A stretch of 37,411 nucleotides of DNA from Candidatus Woesearchaeota archaeon (GTDB taxonomy: Archaea; Nanobdellota; Nanobdellia; Woesearchaeales; GW2011-AR4), in contig NZDH01000006.1 in assembly GCA_002688775.1 (NCBI GenBank), positions 42,141-79,551 of the forward strand, given 5' to 3'. This document shows positions 77-1,210 of this stretch, in pieces. A program made the translations under genes and the position numbers. Position 1 is the first letter of the stretch. The number at the start of each line of letters is the position of its first letter. The notes beneath the pieces are model-generated. The model did no database searches, was not told where the DNA came from, and worked only from the letters and a program-made list of their open reading frames with translations.

Positions 77-121
77 CAATTTCTAATACTTAAACCTATG
101 CGGGGATGCCGGAGTGGCCAA

Positions 122-142
122 ATCTCTAAAATGAGAGGCTAT
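122..142 (+). other. tRNA-Leu intron 1 (D loop, 21 nt)
   Basis: Central helix GGCC (116-119) pairs with GGCT (137-140), one G-U. The 3-nt bulges are AAA (120-122) and ATA (141-143). The inner helix is TCTC (123-126) with GAGA (133-136). Cutting between bulge nucleotides 2 and 3 joins A121 to A143 and restores D loop GAGTGGCCAAA closed by CCG/CGG. The position is non-canonical. Confidence 0.8.
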
Positions 143-151
143 ACGGGATAG

Positions 152-182
152 TGTTTCGGCATTGGGGTGCTAAAACATCCAA
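152..182 (+). other. tRNA-Leu intron 2 (anticodon stem, 31 nt)
   Basis: Central helix GGAT (146-149) pairs with ATCC (177-180). The bulges are AGT (150-152) and AAA (181-183). The inner helix is GTTT (153-156) with AAAC (173-176), then GCA (159-161) with TGC (168-170). Cutting between bulge nucleotides 2 and 3 joins G151 to A183 and creates anticodon-stem strand ATAGA, perfectly complementary to TCTAT (240-244). It lies between tRNA positions 30 and 31. Confidence 0.85.
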
Positions 183-189
183 ACTCAAG

Positions 190-238
190 TTTGCTGAGTA
201 ACGAAGCTCGAAAGGCTGATGAAGAACTCAGATGAGCC
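190..238 (+). other. tRNA-Leu intron 3 (canonical 37/38, 49 nt)
   Basis: Central helix CTCA (184-187) pairs with TGAG (233-236). The cut bulges are AGT (188-190) and CCA (237-239). The intron is held by CTGAGT (194-199) with ACTCAG (226-231), slightly offset from the bulge, so the inner side is a relaxed form. Splicing joins G37 (189) to A38 (239) and gives loop CTCAAGA. Confidence 0.85.
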
Positions 239-376
239 ATCTATTGGCTTAGTGCCTACAGGGGTTCAAATCCTCTTCCCCGCACTTAATATTTCTATTT
301 GTATCTTAAGACTTATTTTTTAAATATATCTGCATTTTACATAGATTTAACGTTCAACTTTCAAATTATGATTCTT

Positions 377-457: not shown

Positions 458-1210
458 ATGCATAAACAAAAAATAAATCATAATTTAATTAATCCAGAAA
501 TTGCTGAAATATTGGGTGCTTTTATAGGTGATGGATGGATTGAAAGTAATAAAGGTGCTCTATATATAACGGGAAGTCCTAGTGAAGACAAATTGTATTA
601 TGATAATCATCTGTCTGTATTATTTTCTAAGTATTTTGAGTCTGTAGAACCTAAGAATTTTGCTTATTGGGGTGTTTATGGGATTTCCTCATATAAGAAA
701 AAAGTAATTAGAAAAGCTATAGATTTGGGTTTTCAAATTGGTCATAAATCTTCAGTTGCGAAAATTCCAGACTATATAGTGAATTCCAAAGATATGAAAA
801 TAATAAAAGCTGTCATAAGGGGAATTTTTGATTCAGATGGTTCCTTTTGGTGTGAAAGATCAAGAGCAAAGACTTCAACAGAATGGAAAAAAACACATAA
901 CTATCATCCTGAGATGTGTATTAGTTCTTGTTCCAATATATTGCTGGAGCAAATTAGAATACTTCTAAATAAATTAGGGGTAGAATCTCAAGTGAGGTTA
1001 AAACACATTAAAGGATTTAAGAATAATAGGAATATTAGTGATTCTTATCAATTAAATATAAGAAAAATTGCAGAAATTGAAAAATTTTTCTATATTATAA
1101 AACCTAGTAATCCTAGACATCAAACAAGATATCAAGTTTGGAAGAAATTAGGATATTTGGATCCGTATACTAAGATTGAAGATAGATTAAAAATTCTTGT
1201 TAGAATTTAA
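458..1210 (+). CDS. LAGLIDADG homing endonuclease
   Basis: A 250-residue protein with two LAGLIDADG motifs, ILGAFIGDG (about 18-26, acidic residue D25) and IRGIFDSDG (about 120-128, D127), as in monomeric homing endonucleases. Each motif supplies one metal-binding acid for cutting a long asymmetric DNA site. Start ATG458 is used because the earlier ATG444 reaches a stop after three codons. Archaeal members usually lie inside rRNA or tRNA introns or inteins. This one is free-standing, 173 nt downstream of a three-intron tRNA-Leu gene and upstream of RNase J, and no host gene is interrupted. It probably arrived by transfer, and may act on a tRNA-intron site; that role is inference. The family call is firm, the target unknown. 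Confidence 0.88.
   Translation: MHKQKINHNLINPEIAEILGAFIGDGWIESNKGALYITGSPSEDKLYYDNHLSVLFSKYFESVEPKNFAYWGVYGISSYKKKVIRKAIDLGFQIGHKSSVAKIPDYIVNSKDMKIIKAVIRGIFDSDGSFWCERSRAKTSTEWKKTHNYHPEMCISSCSNILLEQIRILLNKLGVESQVRLKHIKGFKNNRNISDSYQLNIRKIAEIEKFFYIIKPSNPRHQTRYQVWKKLGYLDPYTKIEDRLKILVRI

Follow-up and report, generated by a model that had tools for sequence, protein, structure and literature searches.

A woesearchaeotal tRNA-Leu(CAA) gene with three predicted bulge-helix-bulge introns and a guide-like element in the canonical intron

Genes for tRNAs with three introns are a known kind in the Thermoproteales (Sugahara 2008; PMC8450103), in which multi-intron genes with bulge-helix-bulge (BHB) motifs contain up to three short introns, at the canonical 37/38 site and at non-canonical positions. 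Such introns can be closely spaced, and it has been described that one may have to be removed before the BHB of the next can form (PMC8450103). The set of introns has been linked to the type of splicing endonuclease (EndA): alpha-only enzymes are found in archaea with few, canonical introns and (alpha-beta)2 enzymes in those with non-canonical introns (PMC4090602). Among archaeal tRNA introns, that of tRNA-Trp is considered unique in carrying a guide (PMC4090602); the intron of pre-tRNA-Trp(CCA), 65-103 nt in length and located at 37/38, is a box C/D guide for Cm34 and Um39 with antisense to its own tRNA. In Pyrococcus, stand-alone C/D sRNAs target C34 of tRNA-Leu(CAA) (PMC7994747). Here, we describe a tRNA-Leu(CAA) gene of the Woesearchaeota (DPANN) which, judged from its sequence and from relatives, very probably has three BHB introns, a confidence that covers the three-intron reading only. 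New are the host group, the lone alpha-type EndA, a relative with four introns and the guide-like intron, whereas the multi-intron BHB tRNA itself is known.

The stretch of DNA analyzed (the window; 37,411 nt) is part of a woesearchaeotal MAG of 1.04 Mb in 19 contigs that is about 73% complete. An earlier note, made from the letters alone, had called the host DPANN-like, and correctly so: the neighboring RNase J is up to 83% identical to 'Candidatus Woesearchaeota' records. The same note had placed the tRNA gene and its introns at the coordinates given in Table 1, and this placement is correct in coordinates as well as in segmentation. With ARAGORN, no tRNA is detected in the whole window, nor in the unspliced 185-nt gene, whether or not an intron is allowed for; a perfect tRNA-Leu(CAA) of 84 nt is recognized once 122-142, 152-182, and 190-238 are removed, as had been claimed. 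The same three introns are returned by an independent spliced-alignment program that received only the mature consensus and the BHB rule. One-intron models are misleading at this locus, since ARAGORN, with one intron allowed and intron 1 alone removed, makes a wrong call of tRNA-Glu. A split or permuted tRNA gene is ruled out, the four exons being collinear within 185 nt. The acceptor stem and the T arm had been described as perfect; the acceptor and T stems are intact, but the T stem contains one G-U pair. An Rfam scan of the window gave no family at its threshold, and a weak match to sR10 at 215-253 (E=0.079, 18 bits against a cut-off of 45) is taken as chance. ARAGORN also suggests that several other tRNA genes of the host genome are interrupted.

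Table 1. Features of the tRNA-Leu(CAA) locus and the EndA gene in the window (positions within the window).
Feature	Position	Strand	Evidence
tRNA-Leu(CAA) gene, three introns, 84-nt mature product	100..284	+	ARAGORN (spliced only), spliced alignment, 86% identical full-length homologue in G001
Exon 1, acceptor 5' strand to position 21	100..121	+	
Intron 1 at 21/22, D loop	122..142	+	In G001, G009; exact-border absence in most relatives; in MFE fold
Exon 2, positions 22-30	143..151	+	
Intron 2 at 30/31, anticodon stem	152..182	+	49/97 orthologues; exact absence in L057, L058; compensatory exon-intron changes
Exon 3, positions 31-37, anticodon CAA	183..189	+	
Intron 3 at canonical 37/38 site	190..238	+	96/97 collected orthologues; absent in G126 (L272)
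Antisense UGAGU, complementary to A31-A35 of own tRNA	195..199	+	
D-box-like ACGA, N+5 = G pairing with C34	201..204	+	GA at fixed offset in 69/86 introns
Hairpin AGCU-CGAAA-GGCU, kink-turn stem between D-like and C-like boxes	205..217	+	Covarying in relatives
C-box-like GAUGA (relatives' consensus YGAUGA)	218..222	+	
Exon 4, positions 38-73: anticodon-stem 3' strand, variable arm, T arm, acceptor 3' strand, discriminator A	239..284	+	
Free-standing LAGLIDADG homing-endonuclease-like ORF, 250 aa, 173 nt downstream of the tRNA	458..1210	+	PF14528, E=3e-9
EndA tRNA-splicing endonuclease, 190 aa	17799..18371	+	PF01974 + PF02778, TIGR00324, best PDB match 3iey_A

All three introns have a central helix with 4/4 base pairs between two 3-nt bulges, and the rule proposed for them, a 4-bp helix with a cut between bulge nucleotides 2 and 3, holds at each. 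BHB 1 consists of the central helix 116-119/137-140 (GGCC/GGCU), the inner helix 123-126/133-136, and bulges at 120-122 and 141-143; in place of a clean outer helix it has an internal loop, with the D-stem pairs CCG/CGG beyond it, which makes it a relaxed BHB. The central helix of BHB 2 is formed by 146-149/177-180 (GGAU/AUCC) with bulges at 150-152 and 181-183, and that of BHB 3 by 184-187/233-236 (CUCA/UGAG) with bulges at 188-190 and 237-239. Introns 2 and 3 had been regarded as nested; they are instead neighbors, 7 nt apart. In 32 genes of a clade of relatives without intron 2 (e.g., L060, L200), the central helix of the 37/38 intron is CUCA/UAAG and contains a C34-A mismatch, which leaves the canonical site with an imperfect BHB.

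The gene proved widespread in a DNA search of 147 relatives, and 97 distinct tRNA-Leu(CAA) genes of the order Woesearchaeales served as the comparison set. The 37/38 intron is present in 96 of these, a proportion to be read in the light of the pattern used for collection, which extends over the three final bases of intron 3 and therefore under-samples genes lacking it. The 30/31 intron occurs in 49/97 genes and the 21/22 intron in 13/97; further intron sites within the set are 15/16 and, in the T loop, 59/60, where a TTCA/TGAA central helix was worked out manually on the sequences. Three introns are present in 18 genes by our own count. Full-length homologues with all three introns and 81-86% identity occur in two genomes of the same genus (G001, at 86%, and G009), and each genome carries a single locus. 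In other relatives precisely the 21 nt of intron 1 are missing (junction GGCCAA-ACGGG), or precisely intron 2 (junction GAUAG-ACUCAAG; L057, L058), and intron 3 is missing in G126 (L272). The search for the same introns in relatives, which the earlier note had recommended, thus supports a multi-intron tRNA-Leu(CAA) in a DPANN genome, and the exact intron-minus alleles confirm the predicted borders of introns 1 and 2. As far as these sequences indicate, related species differ through gain or loss of introns 1 and 2, and gains and losses at a single gene would provide a natural series for studying the movement of BHB introns. Three introns in a DPANN-like genome are less surprising than had been stated, since tRNA-Leu(CAA) genes with several introns are found repeatedly within the order and ordered removal had already been described (PMC8450103).

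For intron 2 the borders were set from the exons alone, without recourse to pairing; in the case of introns 1 and 3 pairing did help in the choice, and their pairing figures are consequently biased upward. Over 49 genes the central helix of intron 2 is 99.5% paired, and sliding it by 1-3 nt reduces this to 13-54%. Exon and intron change together in a compensatory manner (GGAU/AUCC, GGAC/GUCC, GGGU/ACCC, UGAC/GUCA). When the 3' quartets were re-dealt among the genes, pairing was still 93%, as most genes share one quartet, but the maximum was 95.4% and no shuffle reached the observed value.

With another copy supplying the tRNA, the locus could be a decaying pseudogene with insertions, a reading that we consider highly improbable. 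The gene appears to be the only tRNA-Leu(CAA) of the host genome: the V-arm pattern has one match, and in answer to the question of another intact copy, no second CAA gene is present among the ARAGORN/Rfam hits, in both cases within a genome that is about 73% complete, so that a second copy could be missing, the one circumstance in favor of a pseudogene. Besides this single matching locus, the spliced tRNA has every stem intact, the three-intron architecture is kept at 81-86% identity in two sister species, and the intron-2 helices covary; on the conserved architecture, intact stems, and covariation we reject the pseudogene reading. It is unlikely, too, that the introns are mobile elements which spread with the help of the neighboring LAGLIDADG protein. 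In G073, G126, and G184 a homologue of this protein is encoded directly downstream of tRNA-Leu(CAA), and in G295 one is encoded beside it; such an ORF thus adjoins the tRNA gene in five different families, that of the window and those of L051, L101/L272, L277, and L147, which at the level of sequence suggests repeated LAGLIDADG insertion at this locus. In the four cases with the ORF on the downstream side, the interval between the two contains a CACTGGACA motif (at position 380 in the window). Mobility would fit this recurrence in five families with its patchy distribution, as well as the gain or loss of introns 1 and 2 between related species, but the ORF is situated outside the introns, no cleavage site is known for it, and most intron-bearing relatives have no LAGLIDADG ORF. 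Elsewhere in the same genome, a LAGLIDADG-like ORF (L007, 822-1472) is located directly upstream of a tRNA gene that ARAGORN assigns to Val.

If the locus is, as we read it, a functional tRNA-Leu(CAA) gene with three introns, the transcript would fold into three bulge-helix-bulge motifs, EndA, encoded 17.5 kb away in the window, would cut at 21/22, 30/31, and 37/38, and a tRNA ligase, which we take to be RtcB, would join the four exons to the standard 84-nt tRNA. The gene, its borders, the covariation, and EndA come from the sequence and its comparison, and from these we infer splicing, its order, ligation, and the guide role considered below. Intron 2 would probably leave before intron 3, as the anticodon stem, which serves as the outer helix of the intron-3 motif, is complete only once intron 2 is out. 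In folding calculations, the central helix of intron 3 lies 7.2 kcal/mol above the minimum in the precursor and 2.0 kcal/mol above it after removal of intron 2, when the full anticodon stem forms together with it; the cost of the intron-2 central helix falls from 4.3 to 2.9 kcal/mol upon removal of intron 3. The motif of intron 1 is already part of the minimum fold. BHB 3 alone is not the minimum-energy fold (+12-17 kcal/mol under strict constraints, +2-7 for the central helix alone), and folding alone would not predict it, since in the minimum fold the end of intron 3 is base-paired to the variable arm. The model thus favors removal of intron 2 before intron 3 as the probable order, a preference and not a necessity, since all three central helices can coexist in one fold, 10.1 kcal/mol above the minimum. 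The question of splicing order raised earlier concerns a situation of a kind already described (PMC8450103).

The EndA of the window has as its closest solved relative chain A of PDB entry 3iey (E=2.7e-37), presumably the tRNA-splicing endonuclease of Nanoarchaeum equitans, and its residues Y126, H136, and K167 align with the catalytic triad in the numbering that we assume. The Nanoarchaeum enzyme has a separate structural subunit (NEQ261, chain B), whereas homology searches, which a very divergent subunit could escape, detected no second EndA gene or structural subunit in the host genome, and in the host and nearly all good relatives neither fused EndA domains nor a second subunit as in the (alpha-beta)2 and epsilon2 types. 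EndA was matched in 56 of 58 good relatives, with a second copy or fragment in only two genomes. Compared with the Thermoproteales, the host is thus a member of the Woesearchaeota with a single-gene, alpha-type EndA instead of an (alpha-beta)2 enzyme. Reviews tie non-canonical or multiple introns to (alpha-beta)2 or epsilon2 enzymes, yet this DPANN order appears to be multi-intron with a lone alpha-type EndA, and the combination, as read from the sequences, would be either an exception to the rule or the result of a divergent subunit missed by the search.

The 37/38 introns align on a common core composed of UUGAGU, one nucleotide, NNGA, a hairpin, and YGAUGA, in which NNGA and YGAUGA resemble D and C boxes and the hairpin the stem of a kink-turn. 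UUGAGU is complementary to tRNA positions 31-36, and the N+5 rule leads to the wobble base C34 in 82/86 introns. At most of its positions the stem of this hairpin is paired more often than in shuffled controls, and 54 of 92 introns contain the whole composite motif, compared with a mean of 0.01 for shuffled sequences, although these matches are not independent events, since the introns are homologous. In the window the antisense UGAGU forms 5 bp, with a mismatch at position 36, and pairs also with an intronic ACUCA. Antisense pairing reaches at most 7/7 positions tested; the element is also present in other orders of the class, in one of which the longest antisense noted by eye has 8 bp (UCUUGAGU against positions 31-38). 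The D-like box is exactly CUGA in 12/69 introns and otherwise NNGA, often AUGA or ACGA, and the C-like box is mostly YGAUGA, compared with RUGAUGA, its first letter being mismatched. The intron alignment contains one unit only and no second C'/D' unit, for which reason a standard two-unit C/D sRNA was rejected, and the antisense of 5-8 bp falls below the 10-12 nt of box C/D guides. Because of the short antisense, the single unit, and the deviating box letters, intron 3 is not filed as a box C/D RNA. Genes for fibrillarin and Nop5 are adjacent in the host genome (G000:C3). Of three genomes without fibrillarin, G045 has a 14-nt 37/38 intron without the element, G126 has no 37/38 intron, and G182 has lost the antisense; G114 and G505 keep the element with no fibrillarin detected, G296 has fibrillarin and a degraded antisense, and the antisense is also degraded in several members of the genus of the window (GAAGU in L032, L036, L044). 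As a natural test of a guide, the joint occurrence of fibrillarin and the element gives a mixed picture, with G045, G126, and G182 in agreement and G114, G505, and G296 not, and it is not used as proof. Some woesearchaeotal genomes (G045, G126, G182, G114, and others) appear to lack fibrillarin, and G045 Nop5 as well.

Two readings of this element have to be weighed. Intron 3 may be a compact box C/D-like guide, whose kink-turn would be bound by L7Ae, Nop5, and fibrillarin for methylation of C34 prior to splicing, a serious though tentative possibility that supplements the three-intron reading and does not replace it, with action in cis or from another precursor. The antisense is positioned directly 5' of the D-like box with N+5 on C34 in nearly all introns (82/86), the kink-turn stem covaries, versions in other orders have an antisense of up to 8 bp, fibrillarin and Nop5 are encoded, and both target and arrangement have precedents in the C34 of Pyrococcus and the intronic guide of tRNA-Trp (PMC7994747, PMC4090602). 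Loss of the element in the fibrillarin-lacking G045 and G126 agrees with a guide, but G114 and G505 keep it with no fibrillarin detected and G296, which has fibrillarin, lost the antisense, as did part of the window's own genus by degradation; the antisense is 5-8 bp instead of 10-12, there is a single C/D unit, the C box mostly does not begin with R, and AUGA or ACGA often takes the place of the D box. Nearly as plausible is that the motif is purely structural, with UUGAGU as part of an inner helix (GAGU/ACUC) and the kink-turn hairpin as an aid to binding by EndA or L7Ae. In the clade with intron 2, GAGU does pair with ACUC or GCUC at the 3' side of the intron; in the clade without intron 2, however, no ACUC partner is obvious and the antisense is no less well preserved (0.97-1.00 at positions 33-35), and the sequence of the internal loop, with its D- and C-like boxes, is conserved, not pairing alone.

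Intron 3 is an old intron, whose kink-turn-like hairpin and antisense to the anticodon loop are possibly kept as a compact guide for C34. It shares with the pre-tRNA-Trp(CCA) intron the 37/38 site, the C/D-like boxes, the antisense to its own tRNA, and the predicted target, the wobble C34, but it belongs to tRNA-Leu(CAA), has about 49 nt instead of 65-103 nt, and consists of a single unit of antisense, D-like box, hairpin, and C-like box with 5-8 bp of antisense and no second target. The predicted target is also that of the stand-alone C/D sRNA of Pyrococcus (PMC7994747), whereas here the antisense would be located within the intron of the tRNA itself. With due reserve, we suggest that the class-wide 37/38 intron might be a minimal single-unit guide for its own C34, the second independent case beside tRNA-Trp, in genes whose three to four BHB introns would be removed by an alpha-only EndA. 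An element aimed at the wobble base of its own tRNA would offer a testable reason for keeping a costly intron in very small genomes.

The Woesearchaeales differ from the Thermoproteales also in intron number and length. In one relative, L055 (G057:C32, gene from 1416), introns are located at 15/16 (30 nt), 30/31 (27 nt), 37/38 (45 nt), and 59/60 (40 nt), and all four central helices have 4 bp by eye. Without its four introns the gene is an 84-nt tRNA-Leu(CAA) that ARAGORN accepts, and the call is lost when the first or the fourth intron is left in. Four introns exceed the published maximum of three; the four-intron gene comes from one MAG, with each of its intron positions also seen in other genomes. 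T-loop introns are unusually long, with 178 nt in L142, 90 nt in L143, and by eye more than 100 nt in L274 and L275, so that lengths of about 178 nt or more are reached; the range stated in a review is 11-129 nt. Short exon-derived repeats (CCAAA, CCGGAG, GGCC) flank the D-loop introns of L034, L047, L154, L168, L213, and L227 and are possibly traces of the mode of intron insertion.
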